DNA of 64,000 nucleotides, from NCBI RefSeq assembly GCF_024972735.1, contig NZ_CP087722.1, positions 62,001 through 126,000 of the forward strand, in the 5' to 3' direction. Within the stretch, counting starts at the first letter, position 1. The number at the start of each line of letters is the position of its first letter. Below the pieces are notes generated by a model, which saw only the letters and a program-made list of their open reading frames with translations, was not told the DNA's origin and did no database searches. The translations under genes were made by a program, and so were the position numbers. This DNA is from Halalkaliarchaeum sp. AArc-CO (lineage in GTDB: Archaea > Halobacteriota > Halobacteria > Halobacteriales > Haloferacaceae). This document shows, one piece after another, positions 33,002-48,545 of the stretch.

Positions 33002-34738
33002 ATGACGCCAATAATCAAATTCACTACGGCAGCGTGTCTGCTGCTTGGCCTTACCACAGCAGGGGTTACTGCATCGGAATCCATTCACGTGGAACAACCC
33101 GCAGCGTCGGTAACCGACAACGAGACTGCGACGCTGTTCTCCAAGGAGCCAAACCACTGTGAGGAGGTGACAAGTGATTCTGCAGGAGACACGGACGAAA
33201 GCGAAGCGTTCGAGGAACTGACCAGCTGTACAGATGTCTCATTCAAAGAACCTCCATCAACGGCTGTGCGGTGGACTGCGACGGCCTTCGACGACTTGGA
33301 GCCAGGCGGAACGCGAACGTCTGTTGGCCCGCCCCATGCGTCCCGGGAGGATTCGTGGGCGATAAAGGACGCACACATCTCGGCGTTTGCAATTCACCCA
33401 TCAACCCGTGCACACACTGGGCCAGATGAACGGCCGCTCTTCATCGCGCCGGAGGGTGAACTCAGAGCCCTCGTCGATTACCGGGTAGAAACACCAGACG
33501 GAGAAGACGAGGAAAACTTCACACAACGATGGTCTGTCTCGAGCCAGGAAGTTCGTGAAGTTCGTGTGTTGCGTGATGGTGAGACGGTGGCCACAGCACA
33601 AGGAAGTCAGACACCGGTCCTCGAGTATGCTACCAGTGGAAGTGGCCAAACGGAGGTGACACTCGAAGCGGACATCGAGGTCGAAATTCGAGAGTTCGTT
33701 ATCATTCGAGGAGATGGCTGGGCGGATACCTATTCCTGGGATTACAGTGACGAGATCACTGTCTCTCAAACGATCACCGCTCACGTCTACGACCTCTCGG
33801 CGGAGCGGTATACTGCAACATATCCGGACGGAGACGTGGGGATTGGTGTTTATCAGGCACTGCCGTGGCATGGCTATACGCTTTCTGCTGATGGGAACGA
33901 CATGGTCCGGGGCGTGTGGCGATATTATACCGCTCGGGACACTTCCTGGGATGAACTCGTTGAAGAGACTGAGGGCGGCAGTGATGTCGTCACATCGGAT
34001 GCCCGACCAGTGTATGTGCATTCATTCCCGTCTCGAGTCGGTCCACGAGCGGAACCCGATCGCGACGGCCCGAGTATTCTCGATGTGTGGGGAATCGAGA
34101 GTGACTCTCCGGCAGCAACCATACACGAGAATGTCGATGTCGGCGTCGTCGATGATAGATATACACGGTCGTATGGAATGGTCATTCGAACTGACTCGAT
34201 AGATCAAGATTCGCTCATCGTACAGGGAATCGTCCGTGGTGTTGATGCGCCGCTTTCTGAGGCCGCTCACATGGACGATCGAGAGATTCGTGAAAGCGAC
34301 GTCGACGTCGTCATCGAGTCAGTGAATGATTCTGCAGCAACCTTGAGGGTCGAGGTAACTGACGCTACAACCGGCGATCCGATCGTTCTTGAAGACCCGA
34401 TTGACGGCACCACGCGAATGACATCGATCGGACCGGACCCTCGAGATGGGTATCTAACGATCGCAGGCGAGCGTATCGAGACCAACCAGTCCGGGATGGC
34501 CACCGTGACTGTCAGCGAGCCTGGTCTCTATACGGCAGAGTATCATCCGGGGGCCTGGTACACACATGACCCAGCCTACGCAGGTGGGACGGCGAGCGTC
34601 CGCTGGCATCCGTTGACGACGGTTTCCGGATGGCTAACACTCCTGAGTCAGAGTATCTGGTGGGTGATTCCGTTCGCAGTGTCGTGGTACGCCGGAATTC
34701 GACTCACCACGTTTCTCCAGGTTGGTGGTCGTCGATGA
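33002..34738 (+). CDS. Exported, membrane-anchored protein of the secretion operon
   Basis: The protein has 578 residues from the ATG at 33002. A signal peptide (FTTAACLLLGLTTAGVTAS) is followed by a ~520-residue extracellular, beta-rich acidic region and a C-terminal membrane segment (SIWWVIPFAVSWYAGI). The anchored extracellular topology suits a surface part of an archaeal conjugation apparatus. Its stop overlaps the start of the VirB6-like gene by 4 nt. No enzymatic motif is seen. Confidence 0.7.
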   Translation: MTPIIKFTTAACLLLGLTTAGVTASESIHVEQPAASVTDNETATLFSKEPNHCEEVTSDSAGDTDESEAFEELTSCTDVSFKEPPSTAVRWTATAFDDLEPGGTRTSVGPPHASREDSWAIKDAHISAFAIHPSTRAHTGPDERPLFIAPEGELRALVDYRVETPDGEDEENFTQRWSVSSQEVREVRVLRDGETVATAQGSQTPVLEYATSGSGQTEVTLEADIEVEIREFVIIRGDGWADTYSWDYSDEITVSQTITAHVYDLSAERYTATYPDGDVGIGVYQALPWHGYTLSADGNDMVRGVWRYYTARDTSWDELVEETEGGSDVVTSDARPVYVHSFPSRVGPRAEPDRDGPSILDVWGIESDSPAATIHENVDVGVVDDRYTRSYGMVIRTDSIDQDSLIVQGIVRGVDAPLSEAAHMDDREIRESDVDVVIESVNDSAATLRVEVTDATTGDPIVLEDPIDGTTRMTSIGPDPRDGYLTIAGERIETNQSGMATVTVSEPGLYTAEYHPGAWYTHDPAYAGGTASVRWHPLTTVSGWLTLLSQSIWWVIPFAVSWYAGIRLTTFLQVGGRR

Positions 34739-35382
34739 CTGGGATCTCGTTGGTCGACGTCGGGGTGCAGTGGTTCAAGGATGCACTGAACATCGTCATC
34801 GAGTGGTTCCACCAGGGAATCGCTGCAGGGTATGAGACGATAACCGAGTCGCTTTTCGACACGCCACTTCCGGAGACGGACGGCTCCTTCGCCTTCGGTA
34901 CACCGACGAACGAACCGTGGACGGATTTGCATGATGCCCTGGTCGGGGGTGAAATCATGTTGCTGGGGTTGTTGATCCTCGTGATCTGCGTCCAGGGCCG
35001 GCATACGATCCGCATCTTCAACCTCGGTAGCACAGCCGAGGCGAGGAGAACCCGGCGGTCTGCGTGGACTGGAGCGTTCCTCATCGTGACCTGGTATTGG
35101 GTAGGTGTCTTGACCCTCTATCTCGTCGAGGCGTTCACGATCGCCTTCCTTCCGGATGCGTCTGTGGTCACTGGGGCGATGCTCGAGTTCCTGGCTGTGA
35201 CTGTCGTGAATCCGGTTCTCTCCCTCATGCTCGCAGCATTCGGAGGCTTTGCCATGTGGGTTATCCAGGCGCTGTTTTTCCTGCGCGATATTCTCATCTA
35301 CGTCTATTTCTATGCGATGCCGATCGGGGTCGCAGTTGCGTATGGTAGAGCGTGTCATAGAATAGTTCTCATGGCTCGCTGA
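34735..35382 (+). pseudogene. VirB6/TrbL-like membrane protein, N-terminal part, interrupted by an insertion
   Basis: The 215-residue product has four or five membrane segments (IMLLGLLILVICV; GAFLIVTWYWVGVLTLYL; LAVTVVNPVLSLMLAAFGG; ILIYVYFYAMPIGVAVAYG). After AVAYG the reading enters a 405 bp inserted element and ends ten codons later (RACHRIVLMAR). Removing the element plus one copy of the 7 bp target duplication joins the frame exactly to NLPVVSRIAKR at 35760, giving one VirB6-like polytopic protein. The start is the ATG overlapping the previous stop. Confidence 0.85.
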
Positions 35383-35704: not shown

Positions 35705-36292
35705 ATGGTAACTAGGCTGACTAGAGTGTGTGAAGAGTTCTATGACACGCTCTATGGTAATCTTCCGGTGGTGTCCCGAATCGCGAAGCGTCTCTGCTTG
35801 AAGTTCGTCCCGTTGGCGATCATGCCGCTGCCAGTTGCGCTCCTGTTCAAAGCGTACGAGCTCCTGTTCAGCGGGGGAACGAACTCGCCGCTGGCGCCGG
35901 AGAGTATGTACCTGAGCTATCTCATCGCGGTGTCGCTGCCAATTCTCTCGCTGGTAATTGTCTGGAAGCTGTTCAAATACGGGGCACCCCTCGCGTCACA
36001 GCTCATGGGAACAACGTCTCGATTGGCTCTGACAGCTGGCGCTGTCGTGACCGCAGGAAAACTGGCGGGCCCATTCGCTGCGGCTTCCGCTGCTCGGTGG
36101 GGGCCGGCCGCTGCGACCGGCCCAGTCGTTGCGTCGCGACTGGGCAACGGCTCACAGGGTGGCACTACAGCGCCGGCGACTGACGGGAGTGGACAACAAC
36201 AGCGGACAGGCCAGGATAACGTTGCTCCTGATTCGACCGCACGAGGGGTTCCCGAGTATCGTCGAAGCGAAAACGATCCTGCGTACTACTGA
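35705..36292 (+). pseudogene. VirB6/TrbL-like protein, C-terminal part with an element-derived start
   Basis: The ORF begins inside the inserted element (MVTRLTRVCEEFYDTLYG) and runs in frame into the displaced half of the membrane protein (NLPVVSRIAKRLCLKFVPLA...). It has three hydrophobic segments and an Ala/Gly-rich then Gln/Ser-rich tail. The element supplies a palindromic operator, an AT-rich stretch and the ATG, so the half may still be translated. The next gene starts 2 nt after its stop. Confidence 0.75.
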
Positions 36293-41640: not shown

Positions 41641-41967
41641 TTTCTGCGTTGCCCTCAGAGGTTGTATGCAGCACAGCAACTATTTTGACTCTGACTCCGA
41701 TGAGCCGTCTACCCACCCGAAGTTCGAATCGACTGTTTTCAGTCGGTTGGCGGGCTCGTCGATCGAGCATCTCCCCGAAATTATACTCTTTTCTATCATC
41801 AAATAAAGTTAAGATAGTTCTGAGCGTATCCAGCCGGCAGTTACTCAGTTCGGGGCCGTCGTCTTTCCTCGTTCATCCATCACGGCACAGACCCGATTCG
41901 CCGGCGAGAAATGGATGAGCGGAACCGAAGCGCCACCTGCTGAGCGACAGTAACAGTGGAGGAACTC

Positions 41968-43272
41968 ATGCCCAACGAGACACACGTAGCGGTCGAATCA
42001 AACGACGAACAGCACTCCGAGCCGTCTGACTCGGCATTCCCGATTTCACGCCGGGCCGCACTCGGCGGATTGCTCGGGCTCGGCCTCTTGAGTAGCACCG
42101 CGGCCGCCCAACCACCGGCCCGACGATGGAATAGCGATCAAACTGCCAATGGCTACCGGCTGCTCGATCTCGGAGCGCTCACCATGCGAGACAACGACAT
42201 CGAGATCCGCGATTTCGAAGGGACGAATCTGGAAATCGAGGACGGCGTGCTGAACGCCATCGTCGAGTCCGAAGAGTTCGAACTTCTGGTCGGTCGGTAT
42301 CTCGACTTCGATGACGACGACACGCTCCAGTTCACCGGCCCGGCCGAGTGGCAAAACAAAACCACCACCTCGGTCAACGAAGCCAGTGGCGAGAATGCGA
42401 CGGTCGGTGGGGGTCACTCCAACGTGGCCAGTGGCGAGAATGCGACGGTCGCCGGCGGGGGCGGTGAAAACGAGGGGGATGGAAACCCTGCCAGCGGCCG
42501 TTGGGCGTCGGTCGGCGGCGGCCAGAGCAACATCGCCAGCAGTTTTCAGGCGACCGTCGGTGGTGGTATCCTCAACAGAGCCAGGGGTGATTCAGCGACG
42601 GTCGCTGGCGGCGCGAGCAACGAAGCCAGCGATATTGCTACGACGGTCGGCGGTGGCTCCGGCAACAAAGCCAGCGGCTTTCTTGCGACGGTCGCCGGCG
42701 GCGCGAGCAACGAAGCCAGCGGCACTATGGCGACTATTCCCGGGGGACAAAGGAACATAGCCGCCGGCAGATCCTCGTTTGCGGCAGGACGGTACGCAAG
42801 AGCGAACCACGATGGCGCGTTCGTGTTCGGTGACTCATCGATGACTACAATCAGCTCGAATGGAGCAGATGAGGCACGGTTCCAGATGCCGGTCTATGCG
42901 GAGTCGTTCAACACGACCAGTACCCGTACAAAAAAGACCAACACCGAACCGGTCGATCCCCAGCAGGCCTTGGCAGGCGTCGAGTCACTTGACGTGAGCA
43001 CTTGGGAATTCACTGACAGCGACGGCGGGCGACATATGGGGCCGATGGCTGAGGAGTTCTTCGAGACGTTCGGCCTCGGCGACTCTGATGACTCAATTGC
43101 CTCCGTCGATGCTGATGGCGTGGCCTTCGCCGCTATCCAGGGCCTCTCTGCAAAGCTTGAGCAGAAGGACGAACGTATTGCCGAGTTGTATGAACGGCTT
43201 GCGACACTTGAAGAGCGTGTTGGTGTGCGACCAGTTGCTGCTGACGGTGGAACAGTAGGGACCGAAGACTGA
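41968..43272 (+). CDS. Tat-exported protein with YadA-like head repeats and S74 chaperone domain
   Basis: The protein has 434 residues from the ATG at 41968; a GTG lies 12 nt upstream. The twin-arginine signal ISRRAALGGLLGLGLLSS is near residues 26-43. Residues ~125-265 hold about ten short repeats of the type NxASGxxATVGGG, as in trimeric autotransporter heads. The region KKTNTEPVDPQQALAGVESL, then GPMAEEFFETFGLG, resembles the Peptidase_S74 intramolecular chaperone of phage tail spikes, normally self-cleaved after trimer folding. A C-terminal coiled coil (LEQKDERIAELYERLATLEE) follows. It is probably a trimeric surface or spike protein of cellular or viral origin. Confidence 0.8.
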   Translation: MPNETHVAVESNDEQHSEPSDSAFPISRRAALGGLLGLGLLSSTAAAQPPARRWNSDQTANGYRLLDLGALTMRDNDIEIRDFEGTNLEIEDGVLNAIVESEEFELLVGRYLDFDDDDTLQFTGPAEWQNKTTTSVNEASGENATVGGGHSNVASGENATVAGGGGENEGDGNPASGRWASVGGGQSNIASSFQATVGGGILNRARGDSATVAGGASNEASDIATTVGGGSGNKASGFLATVAGGASNEASGTMATIPGGQRNIAAGRSSFAAGRYARANHDGAFVFGDSSMTTISSNGADEARFQMPVYAESFNTTSTRTKKTNTEPVDPQQALAGVESLDVSTWEFTDSDGGRHMGPMAEEFFETFGLGDSDDSIASVDADGVAFAAIQGLSAKLEQKDERIAELYERLATLEERVGVRPVAADGGTVGTED

Positions 43273-43327
43273 ACGGATCTATACAGCCCGGTTTCTGGCT
43301 GGAACGAATGGTGATCTGTGCTGCATA

Positions 43328-43404
43328 CGCGCCCTCCATCTTGCACGCCAACCAGTAACAATATCGCTTATCTGATCGTTGTTTCGCTCAGTTAGGCAAG
43401 GGCC
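43328..43404. repeat. 77 bp direct repeat, copy A
   Basis: It contains ATCTTGCACGCCAACCAGTA and TCTGATCGTTGTTTCGCTCA and matches 48469-48545 with about six differences in 77. The two copies bound a 5.1 kb segment with the HNH-repeat and DUF1102-type genes. Confidence 0.85.
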
Positions 43405-43565
43405 AAAAGAGAACCTCAGGTTGGCAGGAGCACCCCTCCCTGGTAGCGCACTGACGTCGTCGGACTCTTCGGCGCCCGCTCGAGTTCCTCGCGTGCGATC
43501 TTCGAACGTGAATCCGCTACGGAATACCGGGATATTTACGCTATTTGGGTGTCACGTTGAATGAG

Positions 43566-44654
43566 ATGCCTACTTCGCCCGACGACTTGCTGTCCGATCT
43601 GCAGAGTCTGGCTGACGAGTTGGGACACGCACCCATGCCTGGCGAAATCGACGACAAGGGAGCCTACACGATGCAGGAATACAGGGATCAGTTCGGATCG
43701 TGGGCGAATACACTCGCGGCGGCAGGTCTGGAACAGCCGCGGGGACGTCGTATTCCCGATGAAGCACTTCTCGCCGAGTTGCGCCGAGTGGCAGACGAGT
43801 TCGATCGCACTCCGATGGAGACGGACATGACGTCAAGGGGCCACCACGGCGCCCAGACCTACAGAAATCGCTTCGGATCCTGGAATCAGGCACTCGAAGC
43901 CGCTGGGCTCTCATCGCGCCCCGATCGTCGCGAGCCCTCACGCGAGGACTTGCTCTCGGAACTCCAGCGAGTCGCCACCGAACTCGGCCGATCCCCGTCG
44001 TGGAATGACATGTTGGAACACGGCGAGTACGTGCCGAATACATACCGCTCCCGATTTGGCTCGTGGAACGACGCCCTCGAGGTCGCTGGACTCGACCACC
44101 GTGAGTCCCCCGAAAGAATACCACGGAAAGAGTTACTCGCAGAGTTGCAGCGCCTCGCGGATGAAAAGGGTAGGGCCCCAAAAACGACGGATATGGAACG
44201 TAAGGGGGCCTTCAGCCCGGGCACGTATCACCGACGGTTTGGGTCATGGGACGATGCACTCGCGGCGGCAGGCTTTGAGCCAGGTGACTCTCGGATGCGA
44301 ATTTCTCGAACTGAACTACTCGCCGAGTTGCAGCGCCTCGCTGACGAAACGGGTTCGCCCCCGTCAACGACGGACCTGCGCCAGGAGGGGGCGTTCAATC
44401 CGGGGACCTATCGCCGCCGGTTCGGATCCTGGAACGCAGCACTCGAGGCGGCTGGACTCGATCCGCGCGAATCAGCCGACCAGATCACCCGCGATGAGTT
44501 GCTCGCAGAGTTGCATCGTCTCGCCGACGAAACGAGTTCGGTGCCGACAACGACGGATATGCGTGAAGATGGTGCATTTAGCCCGGGAACGTACTATCGA
44601 CGGTTTGACTCCTGGGAGGAGGCACTCGAGGCTGCAGAACTCACCTCTGAGTAG
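43566..44654 (+). CDS. Protein made of six homing-endonuclease-associated (HNH) repeats
   Basis: The protein has 362 residues from the ATG at 43566. It is built almost entirely of six ~57-residue repeats: LLAELxRLADExxxxPxxxD, a charged turn, then TYRxRFGSWxxALExAGL. This is the small DNA-binding repeat seen beside HNH endonucleases (HNH_repeat). No nuclease domain is present. A decayed paralogue lies inverted at 46268-47449. It may be a sequence-specific DNA-binding protein, in which each repeat could read part of a site. Confidence 0.8.
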   Translation: MPTSPDDLLSDLQSLADELGHAPMPGEIDDKGAYTMQEYRDQFGSWANTLAAAGLEQPRGRRIPDEALLAELRRVADEFDRTPMETDMTSRGHHGAQTYRNRFGSWNQALEAAGLSSRPDRREPSREDLLSELQRVATELGRSPSWNDMLEHGEYVPNTYRSRFGSWNDALEVAGLDHRESPERIPRKELLAELQRLADEKGRAPKTTDMERKGAFSPGTYHRRFGSWDDALAAAGFEPGDSRMRISRTELLAELQRLADETGSPPSTTDLRQEGAFNPGTYRRRFGSWNAALEAAGLDPRESADQITRDELLAELHRLADETSSVPTTTDMREDGAFSPGTYYRRFDSWEEALEAAELTSE

Positions 44655-44888
44655 CTACGAAACTTTTTTGGGCAACAATACGCCGATTTCAGGGCTCACC
44701 TGAACAGGTCCAACCGGGAGTTCAGGGTTTTCCAGAAACGGCTGCATAACTCTCAAGGTAGGGCTGATAATTCGTCGGGAAATTCTGGGACACTTTGAGA
44801 TCATCCCGAGGACCCTCAGGTGCCCCAATACAGTATGGGTATAGGATATAGAAAGGAGTGAGCGCGTCCGGTTGGGTGCGGTGCGGTT

Positions 44889-44932: not shown

Positions 44933-45526
44933 ATGGAACGACGCAAGTTCGTGATCGGTCTGGGATCGCTCGCCGCCGGCGGGGCGGCTGCAATGGGTAG
45001 TGGTGCGTTTTCAATGGCGACCGTCCAGCGTGATGTGACTGTTCAGACGACCGGCGATGCTAATGCAGTTGTCGGTCTCTACCCAATCGAAGGTGGAACT
45101 GGTGATAACAATACCAACACGGACGGGTCTGATGGAGACTACGCAGAAATAAGCAACAGGACCCTTGAAGTCACGCTTGATGAGCTTAATAAAGACGCTG
45201 ACTTCACTTTCCAAGACGTCTTCACAATTGTTAACGAAGGGACTGAAACCGTCAACCTTGATCGGATAAACGAAAGTGGTTGGTGGGAATCTAACGCGTT
45301 CAATGTTCTGATTGCTGAAGAGTTGGATTCCTACCAAGACGATGTGGGGAGAGAGGTCTTTGATGAAAACTTCGACCAGAGTTCGAATCCTGCTACGGAG
45401 AACACCGCGGGGCTTGAGCCGGGTGATTCAATCGTCATTGGCTTCGGGTTCTGGGGTGAAGACGGTGTTGGTTCGTGGGACGACGATGATGTGCCCGAGA
45501 CTCTAACGTTCAACCTTGGCGGATAG
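44933..45526 (+). CDS. DUF1102/SipW-dependent-type surface protein
   Basis: The 197-residue protein has the haloarchaeal DUF1102-type N-terminus MERRKFVIGLGSLAAGGAAA followed by SGAFS, a signal region with the charged RRKF start. The mature part is acidic and beta-rich (FTFQDVFTIVNEGTETVNLD; GLEPGDSIVIGFGFWGED), like TasA/archaeal surface-fibre proteins. It would be exported and may assemble on the surface. A second family member follows 48 nt downstream. Confidence 0.75.
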   Translation: MERRKFVIGLGSLAAGGAAAMGSGAFSMATVQRDVTVQTTGDANAVVGLYPIEGGTGDNNTNTDGSDGDYAEISNRTLEVTLDELNKDADFTFQDVFTIVNEGTETVNLDRINESGWWESNAFNVLIAEELDSYQDDVGREVFDENFDQSSNPATENTAGLEPGDSIVIGFGFWGEDGVGSWDDDDVPETLTFNLGG

Positions 45527-45574: not shown

Positions 45575-46138
45575 ATGAAACGAAGACAAATCCTCGCTGG
45601 GGTCGTAGCTACGGTCGGTGCTAGTGTCTTCGCCACCGGAACTGGAGCATTCAGTAAAGCTACTGTCCAGCGGGAAATCACCGTTGAGATAACAAACGAC
45701 TTGGATGCCGTTCTTACTCTCACACCGCTTGGAGGTTCCCAACGTTCCAGTGGTGGATTCCCAGAAGAAGGCACGGTTGAATTCAATTTACCTGGGGATG
45801 TTAGTGAGAAGAAACTGAATATCGATGCGATCATTCAGTACAGCCGTGATGTCGAACCCGAAGGGGCTAATGGACTCTTACGAATAGGGAATGACGGAAC
45901 TGAGACGGTAGAAGTCACTGACGATCCAGTTGATCCTGATCCGGATAAACCAGGCATTGGCCTATTTTGGGTTGAAGAAGATCGTGGAGTTGAAGGGCTA
46001 AAGCCGCTGCTTCGTGAAGAGCCAGTAACACTTGAACCTGGAGATCATATTGATGTAGGTGTTGAGGTGGATACCTTTGGTCTTGATCCTAATGAAACAT
46101 ACGAGACTGAAGTAACCATCAACGCAGATCAGATTTAA
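45575..46138 (+). CDS. DUF1102/SipW-dependent-type surface protein, second copy
   Basis: The 187-residue protein has an N-terminus MKRRQILAGVVATVGASVFA and then GTGAFSKATVQR, as in its upstream neighbour. The mature domain contains LRIGNDGTETVEVTDDP and VTLEPGDHIDVGVEVDTFG, the same beta-sandwich pattern. The sequence is markedly more AT-rich at its 3' end. It likely forms an operon with the upstream copy, though the leader sequence is not shared. Confidence 0.75.
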   Translation: MKRRQILAGVVATVGASVFATGTGAFSKATVQREITVEITNDLDAVLTLTPLGGSQRSSGGFPEEGTVEFNLPGDVSEKKLNIDAIIQYSRDVEPEGANGLLRIGNDGTETVEVTDDPVDPDPDKPGIGLFWVEEDRGVEGLKPLLREEPVTLEPGDHIDVGVEVDTFGLDPNETYETEVTINADQI

Positions 46139-46267: not shown

Positions 46268-47449
46268 TCACTCCAATTCCGAAAGTTTAGCGGCCTCAAT
46301 TGCGTCGCCCCTTAATTCAAACCGATTGTAATAGGTCGTCGCGCTATACTCCCCGTGATCCCGCATATCGACTATCCAGGGTTTGCGATCGAGTTCCTCC
46401 GCAAGAGAGCGTAGTTCTTCGAGTAACTCTTCGATCGGTATCTTGCACGTCGGCTCCCTTGGGACGAACCCAGCGGCTTTAACAGCCACTGCCCACGATC
46501 AGAACTCTTGGCGATAGCTTTGCACGTAATATGCGCATTGCTCTTCGATATTAGCTATTTTCGGCTGTCCACCCACCTCCTCGGCGAGGGCCCTTAGGTC
46601 GGCAAGCAGTTCCTCACAGGACGGCGGTTCCGTTTGGTCGGTGCCAGCAGCTTCGAGGGCATCCTCCCACAAGTCGAAGCGCCGATAGTACACCACGACA
46701 CTTGTACTCGCCGCGTTCTTCGTCATCAAATGTCTTCGGGGGGCGGTCGAGCGTCTCGGCCAACGACCGGAGGTCCTCGAGAAGTTCCTCTCCGGGAACC
46801 TCCTCGACGGATCGCGTCTCCAGACCAGTGGTTTCCAGTGTCTCGATCCACGAGCCGAATCGCTGGCGGTACGTCCCCGTTCCGCATTCACTATATTCGG
46901 TTATCTCTGACTGTGATTGTGGGCGATCGAACTCATCGGCCAGTCGCTGGAGTTCCGCGAGCAGTTCCTCGCGTGAGCGCTCTTTGCGGGCCGCGTGTGG
47001 GTCGAGACCTGCTTCCTTGACGGCGGTCGTCCATGACCCGAACCGGTTGCGATATGACGCCGACCCGTAACCGCCGCGGTCGGTCATATCCTGTTCCGAG
47101 GGGACTTTTCCAGTTCTGCTCCGAGTCCGCGGAGTTCCGCCAGCAACTCGTTATCCGGGATGCAGCGCCCGTGTGGAAGATCGAGACCCGCGACGGTAAG
47201 TGCCTACTGTCAGGGCCCGAAGTCTTCTCGATAGACCGCGAGGCCATACGCACTGTGTTCGTAGAGTTCGGTCAGCATCGGTGCTCTGTCGAGTTCGGCT
47301 GATATCTGGTTGAGTTCGGTTATTATTTCTTGCGAGAGATGGGCAGAGTTGGGGGACGTGGTGAAAATCTGGTAGGGTTGTGACAGACGACAACCGACGA
47401 GAAGTATATAACCTCCGGCTGGCGGTGCCCGAGATGGATGGGACAACAC
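46268..47449 (-). pseudogene. Decayed HNH-associated-repeat protein
   Basis: Repeat units of the same family as the 43566 gene are spread over three frames on the minus strand: LNQISAELDRAPMLTELYEH near 47310, SYRNRFGSWTTAVKEAGLDP near 47050, TYRQRFGSWIETLETTGLET near 46850, YYRRFDLWEDALEAAG near 46670, and YYNRFELRGDAIEAAKL near 46290. Several frameshifts and stops separate them. It is an inverted, inactivated paralogue. Confidence 0.8.
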
Positions 47450-47700: not shown

Positions 47701-48270
47701 ATGGAACGACGCAAGTTCGTAATCGGTCTGTGATCGCTCGTCGCCGGCGGGGCGACTGCAATAGGTAGCGGTGCGTTCACGAGTGTGGAGGCCAACCGCA
47801 AAGTCACGGTAACTCCGAGAGAAGATGCCAATGCATATCTGCGAATCGAAGAAGGTGGCGAGAATGGCTGGGCTGCCAGCGACACCGGCGGTCCGACCGG
47901 CGACGGTGTTTTAGATATTGACCTCGACGGTGGTCATGGGTCAACTGGAGGTAGCGGTCCTAATATTCGGGCGACGACGACGCTCAACGACGTGTTCCGT
48001 GTCGGTAACGAACACGGCGGAGGCGACGACGTGTGGGTTTACGTCGAGTTCGACACGGCGGATGGGTCAGTTGATGAAGACGATTTCGACTTCTACGACA
48101 GCGATGGCGAACCTAACGATGATTCTATTGTCGGGGAAGACAATGCTGTCGAACTAGGGTCTGGGGAGGAAGTCGAGGTCGGTATCTGGCTCGACTTCGA
48201 CGACGATGTCGATTTCACTCAGGTCCTAAACAATATCGACATCTTCGCCGAAAACGAAGATCCGTCCTAA
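47701..48270 (+). pseudogene. DUF1102-type surface protein gene with premature stop
   Basis: The gene begins like the 44933 copy (MERRKFVIGL) but codon 11 is TGA (47731-47733) where the intact copy has GGA. The frame then continues open (SLVAGGATAIGSGAFTSVEA...) to 48270 with a normal acidic beta-rich domain (VWVYVEFDTADGSVDEDDFD). A single base change thus destroys the signal peptide. Everything downstream is preserved, so the mutation is recent. Confidence 0.85.
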
Positions 48271-48299: not shown

Positions 48300-48536
48300 C
48301 CGGAGGGTGAGGTGATAAACACGCGGGAGTTCTTTGAGGGGAAGAAGCGGGCGGCTGAGATTGCGGAGGAGAAGGGCTTTCGTGGGTTCACAGTGATCGC
48401 GCATCCGTGGTGGGCGACGGCGTCGGCGGAGTCGGCAACCGAGAACCGCACTCGGTTCATGCCACATTCGCGCCGTACATCTTGCACGCCAACCAGTAAC
48501 AATATCGCTAATCTGATCGTTGTTTCGCTCAGTTAG
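48300..48536 (+). other. Unassigned coding-like stretch
   Basis: An open frame reads VINTREFFEGKKRAAEIAEE then GFTVIAHPWWATASAESATE and ends inside the second 77 bp direct repeat. The composition is protein-like, but no convincing start or family is seen. It may be a gene remnant. Confidence 0.3.
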
Positions 48537-48545
48537 GGAAGAGCC
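48469..48545. repeat. 77 bp direct repeat, copy B
   Basis: It matches 43328-43404 in the same orientation with about six differences. Confidence 0.85.

Follow-up and report, generated by a model that had tools for sequence, protein, structure and literature searches.

Peptidase_S74 (intramolecular chaperone, ICA) domains are typical of phage fibres. The endosialidase, the T5 L-shaped fibre and the GA-1 neck appendage belong to virions, lack a signal peptide and carry triple-beta-helix or fibre domains ahead of the module; they share the ICA fold, its catalytic dyad and a C-terminal coiled coil, and cleavage has been demonstrated for all three. The eukaryotic membrane-bound transcription factors MyRF/MrfA carry a DNA-binding domain upstream of the same module and a membrane segment downstream of it; in MyRF, either S587A or K592A abolishes cleavage, the double mutant Y615A/Y617A is no longer cut at the normal site, and the N-terminal portion is set free while the ICA domain remains in the membrane (PMC8326128). 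In trimeric autotransporter adhesins (YadA, UspA1) the head is built of characteristic repeats that fold into a beta-roll, and a C-terminal beta-barrel anchor holds the protein in the outer membrane. The two kinds of module also meet in single proteins, i.e., bacterial entries named "tail fiber domain-containing protein" (Chloroflexota, Verrucomicrobiota, Planctomycetota, Rhodothermota and others), which combine YadA-type repeats, an S74 domain with an S-x4-K pattern and a coiled coil.

Within the stretch of 64,000 nucleotides analysed here (the window; Halalkaliarchaeum sp. AArc-CO, contig NZ_CP087722.1, positions 62,001 to 126,000), an intact ORF encodes a 434-residue protein, P0001, in which a twin-arginine signal is followed by an 88-residue stretch, head repeats, a Peptidase_S74 domain and a coiled coil (Table 1; a GTG at 41956 is an alternative start). 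A preliminary description of this DNA had recognised signal, head repeats and S74 in one ORF, and sequence, Pfam and structural model agree with it. We consider that P0001 is a secreted homotrimeric beta-roll fibre or adhesin-like protein with a built-in, removable folding helper, a reading to which we give odds of roughly two in three. Its nearest counterparts are the bacterial head and S74 proteins (about 29-40% identity over the S74 region), which differ in their Sec-like signals, in the GTAFTYQGRL-type N-terminal region of many of them and, in Chloroflexota, often in a C-terminal membrane anchor. MyRF/MrfA offers the closest solved ICA structure, with equivalent Ser, Lys and aromatic pair, and YadA and UspA1 share the head repeat sequence and beta-roll fold; unlike these adhesins, P0001 comes from a cell without an outer membrane and ends in a chaperone domain where they have the beta-barrel. 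Giant viruses may also hold comparable proteins, since the viral structure predictions that best match the C-terminal model include Pithovirus S74 proteins, one of them named "YadA-like head domain-containing", a likeness known from structure match and name.

Table 1. Features of the P0001 gene and of its product (positions in the window)
Feature	Position	Strand	Basis or remark
GGAGG ribosome-binding-like site	41958..41962	+	5 nt upstream of ATG at 41968; read from sequence
Coding sequence of P0001	41968..43272	+	stop included
Signal region, residues 1-47	41968..42108	+	sequence; motif shared with 15 haloarchaeal relatives; TatC in genome
Twin arginine R28-R29	42049-42054	+	then uncharged hydrophobic stretch; likely cleavage AAA47-Q48
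Acidic region of unknown fold, residues 48-135	42109..42372	+	pLDDT about 30-45 in model
YadA/UspA1-type head repeats, residues 136-292	42373..42843	+	phmmer, repeat count, DNA repeats, model, Foldseek
Linker before chaperone, residues 293-317	42844..42918	+	predicted scissile bond Thr317-Ser318, by alignment to MyRF ICA cleavage site
S74/ICA domain and C-terminal coiled coil	42919..43269	+	Pfam, AlphaFold2, Foldseek, VIA-align
Ser318 codon AGT, predicted nucleophile	42919..42921	+	invariant column S49 of 62-row alignment
Lys323 codon AAG, predicted catalytic base	42934..42936	+	invariant column K54 of 62-row alignment
Trp346-x-Phe348	43003..43011	+	aligned with MyRF Tyr615/Tyr617 lining cleavage site
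C-terminal helix, residues 379-420	43102-43227	+	one predicted helix, AlphaFold2 model

The head consists of nine ASGxxATVGGG-like units with a period of 15 residues, ended by the closing unit SFAAGRYARANHDGAFVFGDSS, and in 5000 shuffles of the sequence the count of such units averaged 0.02 and never exceeded 2. The repeat is also visible in the DNA (eight copies, 45 nt apart, with one spacing of 63). In a phmmer comparison the solved UspA1 head 3pr7 matched at 7e-31, the model is a beta-roll with pLDDT of about 98 across most repeats, and Foldseek again placed 3pr7 first (E 9e-8), followed by other trimeric-adhesin heads, so the YadA-type head suspected from the letters alone stands. An ice-binding beta-roll was considered and rejected, LbR_Ice_bind being under its cut-off and the UspA1 match far better. 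Relatives in L096 (Halomarina) and L168 share 47% identity with a 53-residue part of the acidic region that precedes the head.

For the C-terminus, the PF13884 profile matched P0001 at 30 bits (curated cut-off 22) and was found in all 40 of 40 family members; NCBIfam profiles gave no match to P0001 and PHROGs profiles weak ones only. The AlphaFold2 model of this region, built from an alignment of 62 relatives, reached a pLDDT of 89.9, and in Foldseek its first-ranked match was the MyRF ICA domain 7dc3 (E 8.5e-4, probability 1.00), with the endosialidase chaperone 3gw6 also among the matches. Many predicted structures of viral S74 proteins match the model too. VIA-align ordered the solved structures as MyRF ICA (Z 6.1), GA-1 3gud (5.6), endosialidase 3gw6 (5.5) and T5 fibre 4uw8 (5.0), with the next row at Z 3.0. 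The preliminary description had staked its reading on the S74 fold of this region, and the four solved ICA domains indeed hold the top structural ranks. Because these four are all ICA domains and the sequence signature is present, we regard the assignment of the modelled C-terminus to the ICA fold as firm, with Z-scores of 5-6 that are modest in themselves. The helix predicted to form the coiled coil follows S74, the order seen in the known ICA proteins.

The search for a Ser/Lys catalytic pair, proposed together with the fold, found a Ser-x4-Lys dyad, Ser318/Lys323. In the family profile alignment, Ser318 coincides with MyRF S587 (replaced by alanine in the protein that was crystallised), Lys323 with K592, Trp346 with Y615 and Phe348 with Y617; the profile match to MyRF is weak (E 0.05), but its register agrees with what the known motif requires. 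Neither dyad column varies in the 62-row alignment, whose rows were chosen by the S-x4-K pattern, and since that pattern was required of all 62, fairer figures of conservation are the 77 of 78 loci that passed it before row selection and the 25 of 27 haloarchaeal loci, chosen by Pfam alone, that retain both residues. The two exceptions among these 27 are L018, a fragment, and L023. The latter (L023/L051) is a Tat-type haloarchaeal member with Ala and Arg at the dyad positions, by its sequence a candidate for a naturally cleavage-dead protein, so not all members depend on cleavage.

By analogy with the characterised ICA proteins, P0001 probably cleaves itself before Ser318. We infer from MyRF and endosialidase that the S74/ICA domain would trimerise via its coiled coil and put three chains in register, and that the YadA-type head would start from there to wind into its left-handed beta-roll. 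Once the trimer was correctly formed, Ser318, activated by Lys323, would attack the preceding peptide bond (Thr317-Ser318), which would detach the chaperone (residues 318-434) and leave a stable head of about residues 48-317. Alternatively, the S74 domain could trimerise the fibre and then stay uncut as a C-terminal cap or stalk, a reading with which the dyad-less L023 is in keeping, as are the 11 of 14 Chloroflexota members in which a transmembrane segment and a basic tail follow the S74 coiled coil (L064, L075, L078, L082, L084, L094, L098, L117, L123, L127 and L130), apparent anchors that cleavage would part from the head. However, a protein anchored behind S74 can still be cleaved, as MyRF itself illustrates, and a structural cap would not obviously need a dyad that is invariant across diverged phyla; we therefore find a permanently uncut domain unlikely. 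In Chloroflexota, a cut would free the head from a chaperone that stays in the membrane, as in MyRF; otherwise the anchor is evidence that no cut is made there. No such C-terminal membrane anchor was seen in any of the 15 haloarchaeal members tested.

The N-terminus of P0001 carries a twin-arginine signal with a weakly hydrophobic core, ISRRAALGGLLGLGLLSSTAAAQ, found by motif scan, and its R28-R29 motif recurs in 15 haloarchaeal relatives, in agreement with the first reading of a twin-arginine signal. Some RR signals can use Sec too, and we call the signal Tat-type by motif only, i.e., its own and the one shared by its relatives; TatC genes are present in the same genome. Among the roughly 35 haloarchaeal members with readable N-termini, 16 (P0001 included) have a twin arginine and the rest no recognisable signal, so about half are signal-less and export is not universal. 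A crude hydrophobicity scan of bacterial relatives gave Sec-like signals in 36 of 43, two of them with RR within the first 25 residues. Halophilic archaea secrete predominantly through Tat, which handles folded proteins (PMC2910488). With Tat as the default haloarchaeal route, its pairing with S74 is to be expected and nothing exotic, and the use of Tat does not in itself support the idea of a novel assembly route; the bacterial relatives have Sec-like signals. Nor did we find support for the surface fibre of the preliminary description, if attachment to the cell is meant, as searches of P0001 for a C-terminal anchor and, in the signal, for a lipobox Cys found neither, and a Pfam search for an anchor (YadA beta-barrel included) gave no match, the C-terminus being S74 and coiled coil.

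P0001 would be exported via Tat by means of its N-terminal RR signal, which would then be removed, and since folded proteins are what Tat transports, P0001 may well trimerise and be cut in the cytoplasm, ahead of export; the Sec-exported bacterial relatives would have to trimerise and cleave outside. It is conceivable, though less likely than not, that in haloarchaea self-cutting of the chaperone serves as a checkpoint that marks finished cytoplasmic trimers, which would then be exported by Tat with up to three signals each, the corresponding step in bacteria coming after Sec. A different order of events, in which single chains cross the membrane and trimerisation, head folding and cleavage all take place outside, seems to us about as doubtful. 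The module evidently works post-export in the Sec-like bacterial majority, and three signal peptides per trimer may hinder Tat, yet Tat rejects unfolded proteins, although some studies differ for intrinsically unfolded ones (PMC2910488), and, in our view, one chain by itself, apart from the interdigitated trimer, would hardly pass for folded. A coiled-coil-like stretch, judged by eye, precedes the twin arginine in 9 of the 16 haloarchaeal Tat-type members (L031, L033, L037, L038, L039, L042, L045 and L048 among them), which hints at cytoplasmic oligomerisation before export in those members and speaks against assembly outside; P0001 itself has none. The order of folding and export, release from the cell or retention at its surface, and a role in attachment or in a matrix are the least certain parts of our reading of P0001 as a secreted trimer.

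A scan of species genomes with the alignment recovered at least 209 encoded relatives; a single-sequence scan of genome contigs with P0001 found none. The best 78 of these at least 209 loci include members from haloarchaea, Verrucomicrobiota, Chloroflexota, Planctomycetota, Rhodothermota, Acidobacteriota, Gemmatimonadota and Pseudomonadota. Among 391 haloarchaeal genomes, Pfam S74 occurs in 22 and the family profile at 90 bits or more in 30 (counted from the match table), which makes it a sporadic accessory gene, and S74 matches were obtained from three genomes elsewhere in the phylum. In a tree of the S74 region (98 columns) the haloarchaeal members fall on one side of a branch with support of only 53/79. 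Confinement of S74 to viruses is ruled out by relatives in cellular genomes of many phyla, and the initial premise that these domains are known from phage spikes and some eukaryotic factors was too narrow, the combination of head and S74 being common to many bacterial phyla and haloarchaea. Open-access literature on S74 or YadA in archaea dealt with contractile-injection-system fibres and contained nothing on these proteins. Judged from sequence, P0001 thus appears to be no unique chimera but the haloarchaeal form, exported by Tat, of a widespread family that experiments have neglected. If so, a large unstudied set of bacterial and archaeal cellular fibres would use the self-cutting chaperone of phages and MyRF, and haloarchaea would gain an adhesin-like secreted product that the present "tail fiber" annotation hides. 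The split between Sec (bacterial) and Tat (haloarchaeal) would then be a natural comparison, in which one and the same module may need to do its folding work before export in haloarchaea and after it in bacteria, and would raise the question of whether Tat can carry a pre-assembled homotrimer.

Six of the signal-less haloarchaeal S74 proteins (L002, L007, L008, L012, L015 and L074) open with DYNVPxxGxxxWHxPLNxNF, and Mtd_N (the N-terminus of a phage tropism determinant) lies just under its cut-off in two of the three tested; phage records searched with the start of L007 gave no match. Relatives are also found in six plasmid records, five annotated as "tail fiber domain-containing protein" and one as hypothetical protein. 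Such NCBI labels, the Mtd_N-like starts and the association of S74 with phage fibres would suit the idea that the plasmid harbours a stray tail fibre, left over from a provirus or a phage-derived particle. Nevertheless, phage records gave no match and viral contigs only 13 weak ones, the relatives' flanks, among those listed, hold ordinary cellular genes, and a virion or tail gene neighbourhood was sought in the window and in those flanks and not found. The window neighbours are conjugation, transposase and HNH-repeat genes, and a signal peptide would be pointless on a tail fibre, which is put together in the cytoplasm. On the phage-record search, the relatives' flanks and the window neighbours we discard a provirus origin, which we hold to be very improbable.

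The gene lies on the 166,871-base contig of a two-contig genome, and the conjugation-like genes make it likely that this contig is a plasmid. A TrbL/VirB6-like gene is apparently split between two ORFs (34630-35382 and 35705-36292), which cover TrbL_3 profile positions 2-202 and 199-379. Downstream of the P0001 gene, an 86-nt direct repeat (91% identical; 43319-43404 and 48460-48545) flanks HNH_repeat ORFs and small RR-signal proteins and could be the trace of an insertion or recombination event. The HNH_repeat proteins (43545-44654, forward strand, and 46614-47087, reverse strand) consist almost entirely of the HNH_repeat unit in tandem (six repeats, 2e-131), and no nuclease domain is obvious in them. 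The small proteins (44933-45526, 45575-46138 and 47785-48270) have no Pfam match, and the first two open with RR signals. Two regions of about 180 nt, at 44886 and 47654, are 81% identical, suggesting a duplication.
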